Shown piece by piece: positions 3 to 19,903 of a DNA stretch of 36,758 nucleotides; position 1 is the stretch's first letter; the number at the start of each line of letters is the position of its first letter. The stretch is from Planctomycetota bacterium (GTDB lineage: Bacteria; Planctomycetota; UBA1135; GCA-002686595). A model generated the notes under the pieces. It saw nothing but the letters and a program-made list of their open reading frames with translations. It was not told where the DNA came from and made no database searches. The stretch is from assembly GCA_011053145.1 (NCBI GenBank), contig DRLC01000036.1, forward strand, positions 1 through 36,758. The letters run 5' to 3'. Both the position numbers and the translations under genes were made by a program.

Positions 3-806
3 GACCTCGAATCGGTCGTGACCGAGGACCCCGACGAGACGGTGCGGGTCTTCGCGCTCGAGGCGATCGCCGAGGCGAGCACGCCCGATGTCGCGACCCG
101 CTGCGACTGGCTGCGTCCCGCGCTCGAGGACGAATCCCCGGTGGTCCGCGCGAAGGCGCTGGAACTCGCGTGCGGACTCGGCGATCCGCGGGCGATCGAT
201 CGTGCGATCGCGGACCTCGGGGAGAACCCTCGGCGGCTGCAAGCCGCCCTTCTCGCGCTACGGGATCCGCTCGCGGATCCGGCCCTCTCCGAACGCGCCT
301 ACGCGGCTCTCCTCGACCGCAACCGACTCGAGGAGCACCGGCCGCTCATCGAGCGTGGCGCAACCTTCAAGGCCATGGGGATCGTACAGCTCCAGAAGGC
401 AGCGCGTTTCCTGCGGGATATGGCCCTCGCGAATCTCGAGGAACGGATCGAGGGACTGCGAGCCCACGAGTGGTTGATGATCCAGGCCTCGAACACGGGG
501 CCCGCGGGACGCATTTGGCTCTGGGAACAGCTCGAGGTGGAAACGGATCCGCTCCGGCGCATCGATCTGATCTCGGCGAGTTGCTCGACCCAGGATCCCG
601 ACGAACGTGCGGCCGTGCGCAACCGTCTGCTGGTGCTCGCGGAAGACGATCGGCGCGCCGTGGGCGAGCGGCTCTACGCCGCCGATCGCGCGGCGAAGAT
701 CGGCCCCGCCTGGATCGTCGCGCCTCGCCTTCGGCTCGTCGCGAACAGCACGCAGGAGACGAGGCTACAGCTCGCCCTGCAGTGCCTGCTCTGGCATTGG
801 TACTGA
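3..806 (+). CDS. HEAT-repeat-like protein, C-terminal part (runs off left edge)
   Basis: The reading frame is open from the window edge, so the true start lies outside; 267 residues are visible. The first 90 or so residues are helical repeats of the HEAT type: paired helices with the pattern 'D.VRVFALEAIAEA' and 'SPVVRAKALELACGLGDPRAI', each about 35 residues. The rest stays helical and charged but is less regular, ending in LQLALQCLLWHWY. HEAT arrays act as protein-binding scaffolds; no catalytic motif is visible. It converges on the ATP-grasp/oxidoreductase gene and their 3' ends overlap by 42 bp. It does not carry the GPGDTV or WW.FN motifs of the two HEAT paralogues at 15.3-19.8 kb, so it is probably a different family. 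Its partner is unknown. Confidence 0.75.
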   Translation, partial: DLESVVTEDPDETVRVFALEAIAEASTPDVATRCDWLRPALEDESPVVRAKALELACGLGDPRAIDRAIADLGENPRRLQAALLALRDPLADPALSERAYAALLDRNRLEEHRPLIERGATFKAMGIVQLQKAARFLRDMALANLEERIEGLRAHEWLMIQASNTGPAGRIWLWEQLEVETDPLRRIDLISASCSTQDPDERAAVRNRLLVLAEDDRRAVGERLYAADRAAKIGPAWIVAPRLRLVANSTQETRLQLALQCLLWHWY

Positions 807-3275
807 GTCCGAGGGGAGCGCGGCGTTCGGGACGGCCGCCTCTAGCGCAACCCACGCGCCCGCATCCTGGAGGCTGCGCCGGACGCCGTCGAGGATCGCG
901 TCGGTGCGCTTCGCCGAGCGGCTCCAGGGAAGGGCGTTGCGGTCCATCAAGTGCGGGTCTTCGCGCACCGCGAGGAAGCGACGGATGCTTTCGGGGCCGT
1001 AGCCGCGCACGCACATCGCTCCGCTGCTCGGATCGGGGAGGATCTGGAGGAAGTGGGGATTGACCTCTTCGAATCCCGCATCGGTCCAGACCTCGAAACC
1101 GCGCTCCTTCTGATCGACCAGCACGCGCCCCCGTTCGAACACGAGCTCGACCCGCTGGTGGCTCTTCGCGGGCGTTCCTTCCGGGTCGTTCCAGCCCACC
1201 GCGAAATCGGCCCGGAGAAGGGCGCTCGAGCGCGATCTTGGCGCGGGGATCGAGAGGTCGAGGGCGGTGTGCACGAGGTCGAAGCGCGGTCCCCCTTCGG
1301 ATGCGAGTCGACCGGGAATCCCCGTTGCGCTGACGCGACAAGGACGGGCCTGGGGCAGCAGGTAGAACAGGAGGTCCACGAAGTGGCATCCGATGTACTG
1401 GAAGACATCGAGGTCCGTGGACCACGCGGCGAGGTCCTGGAGCGGCAATCGAGCGGGCTGGGTGTACTGCACCGAGACGAGCAGCGGGCGCCCGAGTGAG
1501 CCCCGGTCCACGAGTCCCTTGAGCTTCGCGAAGCTCGGGTCGAAGCGCTTGTGGTAATCGACGAAGAGCGGGGTCGCGTTGGCTTCGGAGAGGGCATCCA
1601 GCTGTTCGCTCTCGGCGCCCGTCCCGGTCAGCGGCTTGACGACCCAGGTGGGGACGCGGCGCTGCAGCAGATGGGCGGCGTACTCGAAGTGGCTCGTGTC
1701 CGGCGTGCAGAGGAAGGCCATCGCGTCCTCGAGCCGAAGCCCGTCCAGGTCCGCGGGCCCGTCGATGAGGAATTCCTCGATTCTGGCCGTCACGCCTAGG
1801 CGGACGGAGAGGTCGGCCAGGCGCCGGTGGAACGCTGCGTCCCGCGGGGTGCGGACCGCGAGGACGATGCGGTCGATGGTGCCCTCGCGGATGCAGTCCA
1901 GCAGGGTCGGAAGCACGACCCCGTCCCCGAAGGAATCCCCGAGGACGTAGCAGCCGGCTCCGATCACGACGGCGGTGCGTCTCATCGAATCAGGGGTTGG
2001 GAGGTTGGCTGGGGGAGGGGGGGCGAGGGGATGGCTCGAGCCCATTTCGGCCTCGAGCTCCCGCGCGAGGCCCAGGGCTCGCTCGTCCGCTTCACGTCGG
2101 TTCGCCCCGGTGCAGACCACGTATCCGATCCGGTCGTGGTGGGAGCGAATCGGAGCCTGGACGGGGGAATCGAGGAACGCGTCCTGCAGGACGATCTCTT
2201 CGACGTGGGGGAGGGCGAGGAATGGATCCAGGTCCGGGATACGCGTCGCGCGATCTCCCTCGGGGAGGTATAGGAAACGCTGGGACACCCCCCTCCGCAT
2301 CGGAGACGGATCGAGCGATGCGGGATCGATCGGGTCGCCCATTGCGAGCCGGACGAGTGGTTCGAGGATCTGCACCCCGTGGTGGAGCGGGGCGACGAGG
2401 TCCGCGAAGCGACCGCCCGAAGTGCGCACCGCCATCTCGAGGACGAAGGGGGCGCCATCGTGGGGCACGAGTAGGTCGCCCTTGAGCACTCCGGTCGAGA
2501 GGCCGATCGCGGCTGCGGAGGCGAGCACCGCGCGTTCCATCTCGAGCAGGAGTGCGCGTTCGAGTTCGATTCCCATCGAGTGCCCATCCTCGATCAGGAA
2601 GGGATGGAACCGCTCCATCCCGTCGTAGTGGCGAAGGGCGATGCTCGTCCAGCGTGCCTCGCCCTCCACGAGGAGCGTTTCGGTGGAGAGTTGCAGGCCT
2701 TCTTCGAAGGACTCGAGCAGGAAGGTCGCATGCTGTCCCGGAGGGATCTGTTCGGCGCGGTAGCGCAGCAAGTCCTCGGAGCTCGGGATCCAGCGCACGC
2801 CGCGAGCCCCCTTGTCGTCATTCGGCTTGGCGACGAGGGGATAGGAGATGGCCTGCGCGGCGGCGAGCCAAGAGTCGGCGCTGTCCTCCGCGTGCAGAAT
2901 CTGAAAGTCCGGCACGCGCACGCCGGCGGCGCGCAGCGCGGCGATGCGCAGGTCCTTGAGGGTCCCGCGGCGCGCCGCTTCGACCGTGGGGCCGGGGAGT
3001 CCGAAGCGCTCCGCCACCATCGCCTGCTCGATCGCGAGCTCCGCGGCGTGGGTGAAGACACCGTGGAATTCCAGGCGAGCCAGGTCCCGATGGAATCGCG
3101 CGGGGTCCTTGAGGCATGTCTGCAGGAACTCGTCGGCGAGCGCCGCCGCCGGGGGGGCGGGGGCATCGTCGGCGACGAGGACACGGTACCCGAGTCCCCT
3201 CGCGACCCGCACGGCCGCGCACTGTTCGAAACCGCCGCCGAGCAGCAGAAGGGTGCGTGATTCGGACCTCCCCAT
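765..3275 (-). CDS. ATP-grasp ligase fused to Gfo/Idh/MocA oxidoreductase
   Basis: One continuous frame of 836 residues holds two enzymes. Residues 1 to about 425 form an ATP-grasp ligase of the carbamoyl-phosphate-synthase-large-subunit type: a Rossmann-like start (RTLLLLGGGFEQCAAVRVAR), then KDLRIAALRAAGV, YPLVAKPNDDKGARGV and a C-terminal lobe with VLEMAVRTSGGRFADL. Residues 431-836 form a Gfo/Idh/MocA-type NAD(P)-dependent dehydrogenase: VVIGAGCYVLG at the nucleotide fold and, near residue 547, WVVKP in place of the family's EKP, so the lysine is kept but the glutamate is not. The start at 3275 is chosen because GGGAGGAG lies just upstream; open frame beyond it reads as non-coding. ATP-grasp enzymes join a carboxylate to an amine or thiol. 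Here the likely substrate is a modified sugar or amino acid, but it cannot be named. Confidence 0.85.
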   Translation of the reverse strand: MGRSESRTLLLLGGGFEQCAAVRVARGLGYRVLVADDAPAPPAAALADEFLQTCLKDPARFHRDLARLEFHGVFTHAAELAIEQAMVAERFGLPGPTVEAARRGTLKDLRIAALRAAGVRVPDFQILHAEDSADSWLAAAQAISYPLVAKPNDDKGARGVRWIPSSEDLLRYRAEQIPPGQHATFLLESFEEGLQLSTETLLVEGEARWTSIALRHYDGMERFHPFLIEDGHSMGIELERALLLEMERAVLASAAAIGLSTGVLKGDLLVPHDGAPFVLEMAVRTSGGRFADLVAPLHHGVQILEPLVRLAMGDPIDPASLDPSPMRRGVSQRFLYLPEGDRATRIPDLDPFLALPHVEEIVLQDAFLDSPVQAPIRSHHDRIGYVVCTGANRREADERALGLARELEAEMGSSHPLAPPPPANLPTPDSMRRTAVVIGAGCYVLGDSFGDGVVLPTLLDCIREGTIDRIVLAVRTPRDAAFHRRLADLSVRLGVTARIEEFLIDGPADLDGLRLEDAMAFLCTPDTSHFEYAAHLLQRRVPTWVVKPLTGTGAESEQLDALSEANATPLFVDYHKRFDPSFAKLKGLVDRGSLGRPLLVSVQYTQPARLPLQDLAAWSTDLDVFQYIGCHFVDLLFYLLPQARPCRVSATGIPGRLASEGGPRFDLVHTALDLSIPAPRSRSSALLRADFAVGWNDPEGTPAKSHQRVELVFERGRVLVDQKERGFEVWTDAGFEEVNPHFLQILPDPSSGAMCVRGYGPESIRRFLAVREDPHLMDRNALPWSRSAKRTDAILDGVRRSLQDAGAWVALEAAVPNAALPSDSVPMPEQALQGEL

Positions 3276-3331: not shown

Positions 3332-3928
3332 TCAAGGGGTCCGGCGCCACCCTTCCCAGCTCGCGAGGGCCTCCAGGCCGGCCCGGGGGCCCTCCGGGCA
3401 CGCGGGCCCCCCCTCGAGGGTCCAGAGCTCCCCGCCCGGGAACGCGAGGAACGCGGCGCGGCCGGTGCGCCCCCGTTTCCAGGGCCAGGCGCGGACCGCG
3501 AGCCGCGGGGTGCCCGGCCGGGGGGCGGACTCGGCCGCGAGGACCTCTCCGGAGCGGGGCGCGGGTGCGGGGACGGGTGCCGCCACCGGGACGACGGCGA
3601 AGAGGTAACCGTGACGCCGCAGGAGGCGGCCTCCCGCGAAGAAGTCCTCGTCCCCGAGCGCGGCGACATCCGGTTCCGCGCGTACCAGCTCCTCGAGCAG
3701 GAGCGGTTCCCCGTCCGGGGGTGGGTCCGTCTCCAGCACCTTCGCGAGGGCGACCGCGAGCTCCCGCGCCTCGGATTCGTTCTCGAGGCACACGAAGCTC
3801 CTGAGACGTGGCAGGGAAACGAAGATCAGGACCGCGACGATCGCCGTCAGGGCCGTGGCCCCGAGAAACGAGATCGCACCACGCGATGGATCGGAGCTGA
3901 GTGCGCGTTCAGGGGGGAGCCGCCGCAT
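3332..3928 (-). CDS. Small single-pass membrane protein of unknown function
   Basis: This 198-residue protein is not recognised as a family member. Residues 18-40 (AISFLGATALTAIVAVLIFV) form one membrane helix after a short basic/polar N-terminus, so most of the chain is probably outside the cytoplasmic membrane. The outer part begins with a charged helix (ENESEARELAVALAKVLETD) and has a Pro/Ala-rich linker (VPVAAPVPAPAPRSG). Its composition is typical of surrounding coding sequence. The general plan, a helix followed by a small exported domain, resembles pseudopilin-like or anchored proteins, but no type IV pilin prepilin motif is visible. It lies divergent to the nucleotidyltransferase gene with 40 bp between the chosen starts. 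No ribosome binding site precedes the ATG. Confidence 0.6.
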   Translation of the reverse strand: MRRLPPERALSSDPSRGAISFLGATALTAIVAVLIFVSLPRLRSFVCLENESEARELAVALAKVLETDPPPDGEPLLLEELVRAEPDVAALGDEDFFAGGRLLRRHGYLFAVVPVAAPVPAPAPRSGEVLAAESAPRPGTPRLAVRAWPWKRGRTGRAAFLAFPGGELWTLEGGPACPEGPRAGLEALASWEGWRRTP

Positions 3929-14792: not shown

Positions 14793-15337
14793 AGGTGTCG
14801 ATGGCCGCGCGGATCGGGGTGGGATTCCTCCTGATCCTCGGGGCGGCGAACGCCACGGCCCAGGAGCCCCTCGGGTCGCGATGGGCCGCCGTGGAGGCCC
14901 TTCCCCCCGAGAGCCAGGATCGCCTTCCTCGGGCCGCGGCACTCCTGATGGAAGCCGGGGACTTCGGCGGCGCACTGCTCCTCGCCGAGCGCGCGTTGGA
15001 GCGGGACCCGGAGAATCTGGAGTTGCTCTGGCGGGCCGCGTCGATTTCGGTCTCCCTGCGCGACGCCGGGAGGGCGCGGCGCCACGCGGACGCCCTCTGG
15101 GCGGCGGTCCAGGACCGGGCGTCCGGAGACCGGGAGTGGCAGAGCGCTGCGCTCGAACTCGAACGTTCCGCGGACCAGCTCGAGGAACACGCCGCCGAGC
15201 GCGTGCGGCTCCTTCGCCGCGCGCGCCTCCTCAGTGGAGGAATCTTCGCCGTCCTGCTCGCCGCCCTGGCGTGGCTGCTTCGAGCGGACGCCGCGGGAAG
15301 GCCGGGATCAGGGAAGGTCCAGGAGCCCGTTCTGTAG
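14789..15337 (+). CDS. Exported TPR-like protein with C-terminal membrane helix
   Basis: A 182-residue protein starting with a GTG that overlaps the previous stop; an ATG at 14801 is the alternative. Residues 6-26 (AARIGVGFLLILGAANATAQ) form a signal peptide. A TPR-like unit follows (AAALLMEAGDFGGALLLAERALERDPENLELLWRAA). A coiled helical stretch leads to a hydrophobic segment (GIFAVLLAALAWLLRA) near the C-terminus, so the repeat domain is probably held at the outer face of the cytoplasmic membrane. Overlap with the spermidine-synthase-like gene suggests a common mRNA. The 3' end overlaps the convergent HEAT gene by 30 bp. Function unknown. Confidence 0.75.
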   Translation: MKVSMAARIGVGFLLILGAANATAQEPLGSRWAAVEALPPESQDRLPRAAALLMEAGDFGGALLLAERALERDPENLELLWRAASISVSLRDAGRARRHADALWAAVQDRASGDREWQSAALELERSADQLEEHAAERVRLLRRARLLSGGIFAVLLAALAWLLRADAAGRPGSGKVQEPVL

Positions 15338-17428
15338 CTGCGGCTCGATCAGGGTCGGGAGCCAGACGTCGTACTGCGCATCCGTCGACATGCGGGCGAG
15401 CCAGGGCCACCGATCCTGGTCGCAGATGCGACCGATCGCGACCGCGGTCCAGGCGCGTCCCATCTCGCCCTTGCGGGGATCGAGGAGGCGCTTGCAGAGC
15501 TCGGTCAGCGGCCGCGGGTCCTTGATCCACCCCATCGCGGAAGCCACCGAGGCCTGGATCGTGGGCCGCGAGGAATCCTCCAGGATCTCGAAGAGGCGTT
15601 GGCCGATGCCTTGGTCACCGAGGAGCGCCAGCGCGATCGCGACATTCTCGACGACGAAGGGCTTCTGGGTCGATTCGGTCAGGACCTGCGAGAGGTCCTC
15701 GATCGCGGCCGGATTTCCGATCATGCCGAGTGCGAGCGCGGTGTATCCGCGCACGAACTCCTCGCCGGTCTCGCGCATGCGGGTCCGCAGGAGTTCCTGG
15801 GATTCCTGGTCGCGCATCATGCCGAGCGCGATCGCGATGGCTCCCGCGACCTCTCCCGAGCGAGTCCGGGTGAAGAGCTGGCGGAGCATGCGCCCGCTCG
15901 CCGGCGCGGCCACCTCGCCGCGCTGGGGAGCGGTCTCCTCGAGAACCCCGAGCCCGAGGGCCGTCCACGCCTGGGTTTCCCCACGGGACCGGCTGAGGTT
16001 CGTCAGGAGGAGCTTGCGGATCCTCTGGAGCGAGGGATACGGCTCATCGCCGGTGCCGCGGCGCGCCGCCGCTTCGGCGACCGAGACCATCGAGAGGAAC
16101 CGGGTGGAGCGGTGTGCGGAGGAGCGGTAGGCCACCTCCGAGAGGTGCTTCAGGATCTGCTCGTCGAGCGGATCGCCTCCGGATCGGCCGATGTTGCCGA
16201 GGGCGATGACGCAGGCGTTCTGGACCTCCCGCAGCTCCTTGGAAGACCGACCGACGGAGGCGAGGAAGGTGTATCCTGCCCGGGCGCGGAGGGACTCGGG
16301 GGCACCTTGCAGCAGGCGGGCGATGGCCGTCGGAGCCTGGGATCGCGCGACGTAGGACTGATCGGCATCCCCGAAGAAGGAGAGCATCTCGAGGATCTGA
16401 TCGACGCGGGTTCGCCCGGTGAACAGCTCACTCTCGCCGACGAATTCGTTGTCGAGCGGCATGGGGGTCATTCCGAGCGCGGTGAGCGCAGCGGACTGCA
16501 CTTCCACGCGATCGACCCACAGCGCGGTCTTCAGGGAGTCGTAGATCAGCGCGCGGACCTCGGGGCTGTGGGTTCGTTCTCCGAGCAATCCCAGCCCGTA
16601 GGCGGCGAACGCGCGCAGGCGGACTCCGATGCGCTGGCGGCCGACGAGGTCCCGGCCGAGGGGTTCGTCCTTCAGGATCGCGGTCAACCACGAGGCATAG
16701 CGGTCCTCCCCGCGAATCCCGAGCGCGAGCACCGCCTTCTCGGCGACCTCCTGGTTTCCGCTCGAAAGGGGAATGCGGACCACGTCCGCGAATCCGCCGA
16801 GCTTCGGGTCCGGCATCACGTCCCGCAGCTTCGCCAGCGCCTGGATCGCGTAGATCTGGAGCTCCGGTCGGCCTCCCCGGCGGATCGCGCGGATGAGCGC
16901 GGGTTGGACGACGTCTCGGATCTGTGCCTGGGAAGCGCGCAGGAGCGGGGAGACCTCTGCGGTCTCGCCTCGGCCCATGTAAAAGCCACCGGCGCCGGAT
17001 TCGCTCAGGGTCGGCACCGCGGCCAGATGGTCCCAGCGGTTGTAGTGCCACCAGAGCTTCCAGGAGTTCGGGGACTCGACACGCGGTCGGCTCGCCGGGG
17101 TGATCGGGGGCGGTTCGGCGTCGGTTGCCCCGAGCCCGGGGATGTTCGGGCGCGCGAAGGGGTTCGCGCCTTCGGCGTACGGGCTCGCGGGCGTCGTGCT
17201 CCCGGGAATCGGGGTGCTGGGGTCGGTCCCCGTGACCGGGCCGGGATCCCCCCCGGTGCCGCCGGTTCCGCCCGTGCTCGGATCCACCGTATCCCCGGGG
17301 CCGTTGTACCCCCCGGGGCGGCCGGGATCATCGGGCGGCCCGTCGGGTTGGCCCACCTTCTGGGCGGAGAGGGGGCACGCGAGCGCAGCCAGGAGCAGGA
17401 GCGCGGGAGGGGTGGCGAGGAGCTTCAT
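15308..17428 (-). CDS. Secreted HEAT-repeat protein, paralogue 1
   Basis: A 706-residue exported protein: signal peptide (KLLATPPALLLLAALACPLSAQ), then the motif YNGPGDTVDP, and a low-complexity linker rich in Gly, Thr, Pro and Ser to about residue 110. A conserved entry segment (SWKLWWHYNRWDHL, GGFYMGRGE) precedes about a dozen HEAT-type helical pairs with repeated 'ALG.(I/L/M)' turns (VLALGIRGE, YGLGLLGE, LALGMIGNP, AIALALLGD). It ends in LQNGLLDLP. HEAT solenoids bind other proteins and no enzymatic motif is seen. It is clearly paralogous to the next gene upstream, with which it shares every landmark in the same order. Position after a signal peptide places it in the periplasm or outside. 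No ribosome binding site precedes the ATG. Confidence 0.85.
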   Translation of the reverse strand: MKLLATPPALLLLAALACPLSAQKVGQPDGPPDDPGRPGGYNGPGDTVDPSTGGTGGTGGDPGPVTGTDPSTPIPGSTTPASPYAEGANPFARPNIPGLGATDAEPPPITPASRPRVESPNSWKLWWHYNRWDHLAAVPTLSESGAGGFYMGRGETAEVSPLLRASQAQIRDVVQPALIRAIRRGGRPELQIYAIQALAKLRDVMPDPKLGGFADVVRIPLSSGNQEVAEKAVLALGIRGEDRYASWLTAILKDEPLGRDLVGRQRIGVRLRAFAAYGLGLLGERTHSPEVRALIYDSLKTALWVDRVEVQSAALTALGMTPMPLDNEFVGESELFTGRTRVDQILEMLSFFGDADQSYVARSQAPTAIARLLQGAPESLRARAGYTFLASVGRSSKELREVQNACVIALGNIGRSGGDPLDEQILKHLSEVAYRSSAHRSTRFLSMVSVAEAAARRGTGDEPYPSLQRIRKLLLTNLSRSRGETQAWTALGLGVLEETAPQRGEVAAPASGRMLRQLFTRTRSGEVAGAIAIALGMMRDQESQELLRTRMRETGEEFVRGYTALALGMIGNPAAIEDLSQVLTESTQKPFVVENVAIALALLGDQGIGQRLFEILEDSSRPTIQASVASAMGWIKDPRPLTELCKRLLDPRKGEMGRAWTAVAIGRICDQDRWPWLARMSTDAQYDVWLPTLIEPQLQNGLLDLP

Positions 17429-17705: not shown

Positions 17706-19790
17706 CTAGAGGATGTCGAGGATGCCCGTGCCGTTCGTGGAGTCGACCAACGTGGTCGCCGAAGCCCGATAGTTCAGGTCCACCGCGATCTTGGTGTTCC
17801 ACGGCAAAGGCTCCTTGTCGGCGACGATGCCGAGGGCCACGGCTGCGAAGCCACGTGCCTGGGAGGTGAGCTCCTTGTCCTGGAGCATGTTGACGAGCGG
17901 GTCGATCGAGTGCTGGTCCCCGATGAATCCCAGGGCCGAGGAGATCGCGGCCTGGGTCGCGAGGCTCTTCGAGCTCTGGAGCATCTTGACGAGCTTGCCG
18001 ACGAGTTCCTTGTCCCCGAGGAGACCGAGCGAAATCGCGGCCTGCTTCAGGAGATCGGGACGGTACTTCGACTCCTCGATGATGCGGCCGATCGGCTCCT
18101 TCGCGTTGAGGTCGCCCATCAGCCCGAGCCCGAGCGCGACGTACCCGCGGGCGGTGTCCTCGCTCAGCTTCTCGAGGTGCTCGAGGAGGGTCTTGGAAGC
18201 TTCCTGGTCGCCCATGATCCCGACGCCGATCGAGTACGCGCCGAGCCGCGACTTGTCCTTCTCCGCCTTGAGAGCGCTCCGAAGAGCGTCGCCGAGGGCG
18301 ACGAGTTCCGGAGGCGCGGTGCCCTGCTCCTTAAGCTTGCGGCCGAGGACCCCGATCGCGAGGCCGGCCCAGGGCTTGATCGTGGACTTGCCGCGTTCGA
18401 GCTGCTTGAGCAGGAACTCGGACGCGTCCTTGATGCCGCTCTCACTTCCGTCCGGTCCGGGAGTCCCGGCCACCTTGGCCATCGCGATCAGCGCGAAGTT
18501 GCGGGACTGCTGGTCGGACAGGTTCTTCGGAACCTCGGCGAGGGCCTTGCGGATCTTCTTGTCGAGGTCGGTGTCCCCGGCCGTGCCGATCAATCCCATC
18601 GCGAGGATGCAGCTCTGCTGGACCTCCCGAGGTTCGTCCGAGCTCTTGCTCATGCGGTCGAGCAGGTCATCGGCGATCTTGTTGCGCCAGGTCTCGTGGA
18701 GGTCCGCCGGCATCCCATCGAGGAGGCGCCCGAGGGCGGTGGGGCAGTGGGCGCGGATGAGGAAGTTGTTGGTGTCGTCCGCGAGGAAGTCCAGGAGGAA
18801 CTGCAGTTGCGCGGTGCGGCTGAGGTAGGGCGGCTGGGGGCCCTCTTCCCCTTCCGCGACCGGTGCTTCCATCTGCTCGATCGGCACGAGGCCCATCGAG
18901 ATGATGCACGCGATCTGGAGGTCGCGGGAGGACGTGTTGTCCGACGCGATCGTCTTCGCGAGGTGCTCCACGATCGTCTGGCGTTCCTCCGCCGAGGCCT
19001 GCTTCCCGATCAGCCCCAGCCCGTAGGCAGCGAACGCGCGTGTGCGGTAGGGAACCTCGGGGTCACCCACGAGCTTGCGCCCCTCGGGGGTGTCTTCCAT
19101 CAGGGCGGCGAGGGTCGGGATCGACTTGGGGTTCGCGAGGATCCCGAGCGCGACCGCGGCGGTCTCACTGATCTCCTGGTTGCTGTCGCCGAGGAAATGC
19201 TTGATGACCTGCTCGAACTCGGACTCGCCGCTCTCCCCCTTGACGTCGCCGATCTTCGCGAGCGCGATCATCGCACCGGTCACGATGTCGTTGTTCGTCT
19301 CGGTCTCGAGCGCTCGGAGGAGGGCCGGTACGACCTTCTCGCGGATCTGGTTCTCGGACGGACGCAGGCTGTTCTTGGCCTCCTTCTTTTCCCCCCGTCC
19401 GAGGAAGAAGCCCTCGGAGCCGGACTCGATCTGGCCCTCTTGGATGTGGGACTTCAGGTTGAGGTAGGGCTCCTTGTTGAACTCCCACCAGAAGGACCAG
19501 ACCGTGAGGTCCGGGCCGCTCGCGGTGGTCGTGCCCGTTGTCGGCTTGCTGGCGGTGCTGCCGCCGGGAGCACCGGGGCTGAGCGGACCGGGTGCCGTGG
19601 GGCCGGCGGAACCGGGAGTGGTCGGGCCCGCGGGGCCGGGCGCGGTACCGGCACCGCCGCCACCTCCTCCACCGCCGGGCGGAACGGTATCACCGGGACC
19701 TCGGTACTGGCCCCCGTGGGCGAAGGAGGGGGATTGCATGCCGAGCATGCCAAGAGCGGCGAGGGCCGCGGTGAGAAGGAGTTTCTTCAT
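17706..19790 (-). CDS. Secreted HEAT-repeat protein, paralogue 2
   Basis: A 694-residue exported protein with signal peptide (KKLLLTAALAALGMLGMQSPSFA), then YRGPGDTVPP at the mature N-terminus, a poly-Gly run and a Gly/Pro/Thr/Ala linker. The entry segment is LTVWSFWWEFNKEPYLNL and GFFLGRGEKKE. It is followed by many HEAT-type repeats with 'ALG.(I/L)(G/A)' turns (ALGILANPKSIPTLAALME, LGLMGDLNAKEPIGRI, SLGLLGDKELVGKLV, SALGFIGDQHSIDPLVNML). It ends LNYRASATTLVDS and GILDIL. It lacks catalytic motifs and is probably a binding scaffold outside the cytoplasm. A start 37 codons further up is possible but lacks a signal-peptide shape. Together with paralogue 1 it forms a tandem duplicated pair. Confidence 0.87.
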   Translation of the reverse strand: MKKLLLTAALAALGMLGMQSPSFAHGGQYRGPGDTVPPGGGGGGGGAGTAPGPAGPTTPGSAGPTAPGPLSPGAPGGSTASKPTTGTTTASGPDLTVWSFWWEFNKEPYLNLKSHIQEGQIESGSEGFFLGRGEKKEAKNSLRPSENQIREKVVPALLRALETETNNDIVTGAMIALAKIGDVKGESGESEFEQVIKHFLGDSNQEISETAAVALGILANPKSIPTLAALMEDTPEGRKLVGDPEVPYRTRAFAAYGLGLIGKQASAEERQTIVEHLAKTIASDNTSSRDLQIACIISMGLVPIEQMEAPVAEGEEGPQPPYLSRTAQLQFLLDFLADDTNNFLIRAHCPTALGRLLDGMPADLHETWRNKIADDLLDRMSKSSDEPREVQQSCILAMGLIGTAGDTDLDKKIRKALAEVPKNLSDQQSRNFALIAMAKVAGTPGPDGSESGIKDASEFLLKQLERGKSTIKPWAGLAIGVLGRKLKEQGTAPPELVALGDALRSALKAEKDKSRLGAYSIGVGIMGDQEASKTLLEHLEKLSEDTARGYVALGLGLMGDLNAKEPIGRIIEESKYRPDLLKQAAISLGLLGDKELVGKLVKMLQSSKSLATQAAISSALGFIGDQHSIDPLVNMLQDKELTSQARGFAAVALGIVADKEPLPWNTKIAVDLNYRASATTLVDSTNGTGILDIL

Positions 19791-19903
19791 GGCTGACGAG
19801 ACGGGAACGTTGGGTGTGCAGTGACAGATGGGCAAGGCGTTGGTTCGCCAAGCTTCAACTGGTGCAAAGGCCGTACCGAGATTCCGCCGGGGCGGCGGCA
19901 AAC

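Follow-up and report, generated by a model that had tools for sequence, protein, structure and literature searches.

A candidate ATP-grasp ligase–Gfo/Idh/MocA oxidoreductase fusion in a Planctomycetota bacterium and its possible role in customising pseudaminic-acid-type sugars

A 36,758-nucleotide stretch of contig DRLC01000036.1 (positions 1–36,758) of a Planctomycetota bacterium (assembly GCA_011053145.1), hereafter called the window, carries an open reading frame in which an ATP-grasp ligase runs directly into a Gfo/Idh/MocA oxidoreductase (765–3275, minus strand; 836 aa). Judging by sequence comparison, we lean on balance towards this protein being a fused version of a conserved unit, a ligase plus an oxidoreductase with a VKP motif, that would customise a pseudaminic-acid-type nonulosonate, mainly for flagellin glycosylation. 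We favour this function because the pair appears to be old and co-inherited, relatives of it lie in loci with PseB, PseC and PseF-PseG genes, the ligase co-occurs with PseB, and genes for Pse enzymes, NeuB, Maf and flagellin are present elsewhere in the window's own genome.

Two enzymes in one open frame

The fused frame starts at the ATG at 3275 and runs on the minus strand for 836 codons to a stop codon at 767–765, with no internal stop, and the Shine-Dalgarno sequence before its ligase start is strong (duplex −11.3 kcal/mol). The ligase part, delimited by alignment, comprises residues 1–429 (1989–3275, minus strand), the last residue of its conserved core being about 411. The oxidoreductase part comprises residues 431–836 (768–1985, minus strand); it opens at M431 (ATG 1985–1983) with MRRTAVVIGAG and carries the motifs VKP, DYHKRFD and YIGCHFVD. 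Pfam matches to LAL_C2, ATP-grasp_4, ATPgrasp_N, GFO_IDH_MocA and GFO_IDH_MocA_C3 are all weak and under the curated cut-offs: the ligase half scores 17.0 bits against a cut-off of 27 for PF13535 and 28.3 against 29.4 for PF18603, and the oxidoreductase half matches PF01408 and PF22725, both under cut-off. Despite these weak scores the homology of both halves is firm, because a sister genome (G009) encodes them as separate genes at 53% identity for the ligase and 59% for the oxidoreductase. Conservation of the two halves, together with their common phase, puts the open frame beyond chance. At its 3′ end (765–806) the fused gene overlaps a convergent HEAT-repeat gene (3–806, plus strand) by about 42 bases.

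At the level of fold, the ligase half matches the ATP-grasp structures 4dim, 4wd3 and 3vot in Foldseek (E ≤ 1e-20), and a profile search also returned 4dim (3e-32) and 3vot (3e-26). The oxidoreductase half has a Rossmann N-terminal domain and a GFO_IDH_MocA_C domain (Foldseek 3ezy, 4hkt, 7d5n). Together with the open frame, these matches bear out the preliminary description of the protein as two catalytic domains in one unbroken 836-residue frame. Sequence and fold comparison place the ligase half among the L-amino-acid ligases and ATP-grasp enzymes akin to them, predicting amide formation, and the oxidoreductase half among inositol-dehydrogenase-like enzymes. Like the L-amino-acid ligases BL00235 (3vot), RizA (4wd3) and BacD/YwfE, the window ligase combines an ATP-grasp fold with a LAL_C2-like C-terminal part; unlike them, it falls under the Pfam cut-off and would act on a sugar amine, and its structural-alignment identity to them is about 15–18%. 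The oxidoreductase shares its two-domain fold and the usual active-site Lys and His with TM_0414 (3ezy) and inositol 2-dehydrogenase (4hkt).

The usual active-site motifs of Gfo/Idh/MocA enzymes are E-K-P, with the catalytic Lys, and D-x-x-x-H. In contrast to these enzymes, the window oxidoreductase has VKP for EKP, a Tyr for the Asp of D-x-x-x-H and Pfam scores under cut-off, while the Lys (K of VKP) and the His (H of GCH) are kept. To place these substitutions we used relatives found by scanning one genome per species (84,980 species) with the patterns [FWA]V[DE][YF]HKRF and [VI]FQY[IL]G[CI]H, VKP playing no part in the selection. Seventy-one oxidoreductase relatives were fetched; VKP is present in 62 of the 70 with letters at the site (the remaining one is gapped there) and in all eight that are paired with a ligase. 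The changes of Glu to Val and of Asp to Tyr are constant in the nine paired members, window included. VKP is a signature of the whole subfamily and no oddity of this protein, which rules out the earlier idea that VVKP marks an altered chemistry of this enzyme alone.

An AlphaFold2 model of the whole chain (a single model from a 17-row alignment) gave two confident domains joined by a linker with a predicted local distance difference test score (pLDDT) below 50 at residues 415–431, a predicted template modelling score (pTM) of 0.53 and no defined interface. As far as this model tells, it suggests that the two active sites are tethered and not docked. Because the model consists of two domains on a disordered tether without an interface, the channelling between the two activities put forward in the preliminary description is unsupported, although such a model cannot exclude it.

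A two-gene unit and its association with pseudaminic acid genes

Eight of the 71 fetched relatives (L046–L053) have a ligase gene immediately before their oxidoreductase gene, and in each of these the two are separate genes. Four of the pairs overlap by 4 bp as ATGA; the others range from a 14-base overlap to a 1-base gap, the oxidoreductase start taken for L049 being one of several possible. The fusion is peculiar to the window's genome among the relatives found. The closest relative is the sister genome G009, of the same family (public record Planctomycetota bacterium OFTM281, L046), whose pair overlaps by ATGA. This pair and those of Kordiimonas (L051–L053) consist of the same two full-length proteins in the same order, but as two genes where the window has one frame.

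In a tree of 17 chosen ligases, the nine paired sequences (window included) form one clade with support 100/100 against the eight unpaired ones, most branches within the paired clade not being strongly supported. By their record labels, the paired ligases span Planctomycetota, Pseudomonadota, Acidobacteriota and Myxococcota. Since they form a single clade across at least four phyla, we regard the pair as an old, co-inherited unit. A search of plasmids gave no record that spans 80% of the query.

In three Kordiimonas genomes, the loci L051–L053 contain a PseF-PseG-like gene, a methyltransferase, FkbM, the ligase, the oxidoreductase, a GH57-like gene, PseB and PseC. At L052, PseB and PseC exceed the NCBIfam cut-offs and the PseF-PseG-like chain gives only a weak PseG match. 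In these genomes the PseF-like cytidylyltransferase and PseG-like domains form one chain of about 585 residues (L052, 2–1753; L051, 8–1771). At L047 the pair is accompanied by a second ligase, a GH57-like gene and then a Maf glycosyltransferase. The plasmid search did yield one informative annotated locus, from Solidesulfovibrio, in which an unpaired ligase has around it NeuB, PseF, methyltransferases, FabG, a transketolase in two parts, a glycoside hydrolase, PseB and PseC.

The genes that are clustered in Kordiimonas are scattered over separate contigs in the window's genome (G000). There, PseB-PseC-PseF-PseG lie on contig C296 (L124), NeuB adjoins Maf on C96 (L144), and Maf on C174 (L146) adjoins a relative of the L049 methyltransferase, apart from the ligase-oxidoreductase frame. 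The partial gene preceding NeuB on C96 looks, from inspection of its final residues by eye, like the end of a GH57-like gene. Flagellin genes are also present.

Ligase and PseB also go together across 81 genomes of the family. A ligase of this type was found in ten of them (E ≤ 1e-10; the G020 match covers part of the length) and PseB over cut-off in 19, with the PseB fragments of G064, G023 and G005 not scored as positive. Nine of the ten ligase genomes are among these 19, and in the remaining one, G015, the contig end truncates PseB (367 bits). Treating related genomes as independent, the probability of such co-occurrence by chance comes to 6e-7 with nine full-length ligases and G015 taken as PseB-positive, and to 1.8e-5 when strictly counted. 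Among nine ligase-bearing genomes, the set to which these counts are confined, NeuB is present in eight and Maf and flagellin in all nine.

Proposed pathway and its alternatives

In the proposed pathway, the NAD(P)-dependent oxidoreductase would make or adjust a polyhydroxy acid, perhaps from the product of a thiamine pyrophosphate (TPP) enzyme, so that the TPP enzyme and the reductase would build the acid between them. The ligase would then activate the acid with ATP and link it by an amide bond to a free amine of the nonulosonate or of a precursor, methyltransferases may add to the amidated acid, and Maf would transfer the finished sugar to flagellin. We infer the chemical steps of acid making, amidation and methylation; that the paired ligases form a clade of their own may reflect the Gfo/Idh/MocA enzyme helping to make their acid.

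It is also quite possible, if less favoured, that the same pathway runs in another order, with the oxidoreductase acting on the nucleotide sugar or nonulosonate itself, and the ligase acting on that product, the oxidoreductase then not being the maker of the acid. Sugars are common substrates of Gfo/Idh/MocA enzymes, and a sister clade of VKP oxidoreductases without a ligase (L054–L079) adjoins LDH2-like genes at 23 of 26 loci and NeuA-like genes at 18 of 26, both of which fit this variant. Against it, the separate clade of accompanying ligases suggests recognition of the oxidoreductase product, although this is compatible with either order. The sister-clade loci occur in many phyla, some with NeuB, and this clade apparently serves another nonulosonate-type pathway. 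At L076, on a metagenome-bin contig whose label, Helicobacter pylori PMSS1, looks doubtful, an oxidoreductase like those of the paired clade occurs together with a NeuB homologue, with no ligase detected.

Several points weigh against the proposed reading as a whole. The pair in the window and in the sister genome lies among housekeeping genes (dxr, rseP, a ubiA-like gene and cca), outside a Pse locus, and no PseB or PseC was seen at L048, L049 or L050 in the roughly 5 kilobases or less examined on each side. The chance figures for ligase and PseB count related genomes as independent, the NeuB, Maf and flagellin counts have ligase-bearing genomes alone behind them, and NeuB was not found in one of those nine (G081, 77% complete). 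The junction could also be a one-base assembly error, and the likeness to SfmE drawn below (SO_3265) is one of description.

The window locus outside any Pse cluster and the three loci without nearby PseB or PseC would also suit a pair whose product is a small secondary metabolite, or a surface polysaccharide with amino-acid or acyl links, and has nothing to do with flagellin, the co-occurrence with PseB then reflecting shared surface-gene content. Unpaired ligases of the family also adjoin transketolase-like and other genes, as would be expected on that account. We consider it unlikely, given the Pse context at three Kordiimonas loci, the Maf gene adjoining the pair at L047 and the association of ligase and PseB in the 81 genomes.

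A role in pseudaminic-type sugar modification would also have a parallel in a described system. The sfm operon of Shewanella oneidensis (sfmABCDE) combines the ATP-grasp protein SfmE with a NeuB homologue, a TPP enzyme, a reductase and a methyltransferase (PMC3765264). On the flagellin of this species there is a pseudaminic-type sugar of 274 Da that includes a basic group and bears a further moiety of 236, 250 or 264 Da, seemingly without nitrogen (PMC3765264). The likeness to the window lies in an ATP-grasp carboxylate-amine ligase (SfmE, ATP-grasp_4) within a pseudaminic-type flagellin glycan system with a Maf gene nearby; in contrast to the window, the operon as described there has a 3-oxoacyl-ACP (acyl carrier protein) reductase in place of a Gfo/Idh/MocA enzyme, and no fusion (PMC3765264). 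Flagellin loci of type B in Clostridium difficile include an ATP-grasp gene as well (PMC5207246). Some pse islands of Aeromonas hold a Gfo/Idh/MocA gene, the term ATP-grasp being absent from the text of that paper as seen (PMC7874193). No description of a ligase–Gfo/Idh/MocA pair was found in the parts of the open-access literature searched, most subscription papers being outside that scope. The flagellin glycan of Treponema denticola has a polyhydroxy acyl group; this forms no part of the evidence here, and the open-access search on the Treponema glycan gave nothing direct.

The relatives define a two-gene unit over at least four phyla, which ties the oxidoreductase to a clade of ligases from loci for pseudaminic-type sugars. 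The pair may therefore serve as a way into the acyl-like groups that have been described from bacterial flagellins. Because one carrier, Kordiimonas aquimaris JCM 16665 (L052), is a named strain, its function is directly testable.

The junction and the surrounding genes

Between the two halves lies a Pro-rich linker at about residues 415–430 (1986–2033, minus strand), of which residues 417–430 read LAPPPPANLPTPDS directly before MRRTAVVIGAG. Its DNA holds a C7 tract (G7 at 2017–2023 on the plus strand) and a C5 tract. The oxidoreductase ATG (1985–1983) overlaps an out-of-frame TGA (1984–1982), forming a relic ATGA at 1982–1985 on the minus strand. ATGA overlaps of this kind form real gene boundaries in four of the eight paired relatives. 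The suggestion that MRRTAVV was a former start holds up. The other two minus-strand frames stop exactly at the oxidoreductase start (1984–1982 and 1992–1990). With the ATGA kept but out of phase, one base in the C-rich spacer therefore separates the fused from the split arrangement.

This raises the question of whether the organism in fact has two ATGA-overlapping genes, with one base miscounted in the C7/C5 tract during assembly or consensus calling. The preliminary description had regarded consistently separate genes in relatives as telling against a fusion, and separate genes are what all eight paired relatives have, none of them sharing the one-chain architecture; no other genome of the window's genus surfaced in the searches. 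The composition of the spacer and the two alternative frames that end right at the oxidoreductase start point the same way.

Three observations argue for a real fusion instead. The oxidoreductase ATG lacks a Shine-Dalgarno sequence (+0.6 kcal/mol, with 95% of 4000 random window sites at least as strong), whereas the oxidoreductase starts of the eight split relatives have values of −4.1 to −10.6 kcal/mol; half of these starts rank within the top 7.5% of sites, and the other four are unremarkable against background. Compared with the ligase tail of the sister genome, the fused linker has about 18 additional residues, and no relative has a tail as long. Finally, the 15 other G/C runs of at least seven bases in the window lie within open frames. 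For five of the 16 runs (3151, 3407, 13673, 13808 and 28749, that at 3407 having been scored in the wrong gene, as it belongs to the one at 3332–3928) the frame statistic is not best in phase on both sides, and this argument rests on genes staying open and not on that statistic. For these reasons we consider the fusion to be probably real in the organism, and an assembly error a less probable but credible explanation.

If the fusion is real, it would have arisen when a phase change in the C-rich spacer removed the stop of an ancestral ATGA-type overlap, giving an example of such an overlap turned into a bifunctional enzyme by a single phase change. Its effect would be to keep the two enzymes at 1:1 on a flexible tether rather than to form a channel. 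A one-base slip in either direction would split the enzyme, because each of the other two frames meets its stop right where the oxidoreductase begins. The tract could then conceivably act as a slippable switch between a tethered bifunctional enzyme and a ligase with a poorly initiated oxidoreductase, giving the cell a means of altering the outer portion of its flagellin sugar; we think this very improbable. Homopolymeric tracts are reported to vary flagellin glycans in Campylobacter (PMC3068675).

The genes around the pair are in the same order in the window and in the sister genome: dxr, rseP, the ubiA-like gene, cca on the opposite strand, a small pilin-like gene, the ligase and the oxidoreductase. 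The neighbourhood analysis for sugar genes that had been proposed at the outset proved worth making. These immediate neighbours are housekeeping genes; the link to a sugar pathway came through the relatives and the other contigs of the window's own genome. A role tied to the dxr-rseP-ubiA-like neighbours was set aside: the synteny is kept in the sister genome, yet the oxidoreductase is missing from 78 of the 81 family genomes, its three matches (E ≤ 1e-15) being the window, the sister genome and one distant protein at 30% identity. The scan for promoters and terminators gave nothing notable. The small gene just upstream of the fused frame (3332–3928, minus strand; 198 aa) encodes a protein that looks pilin-like by eye and has no Pfam match. 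Elsewhere in the window, two adjacent large proteins (15308–17428 and 17706–19901, minus strand) each have a Gly/Pro-rich N-terminal part followed by what appear by eye to be HEAT-like repeats, and are perhaps tandem paralogues.

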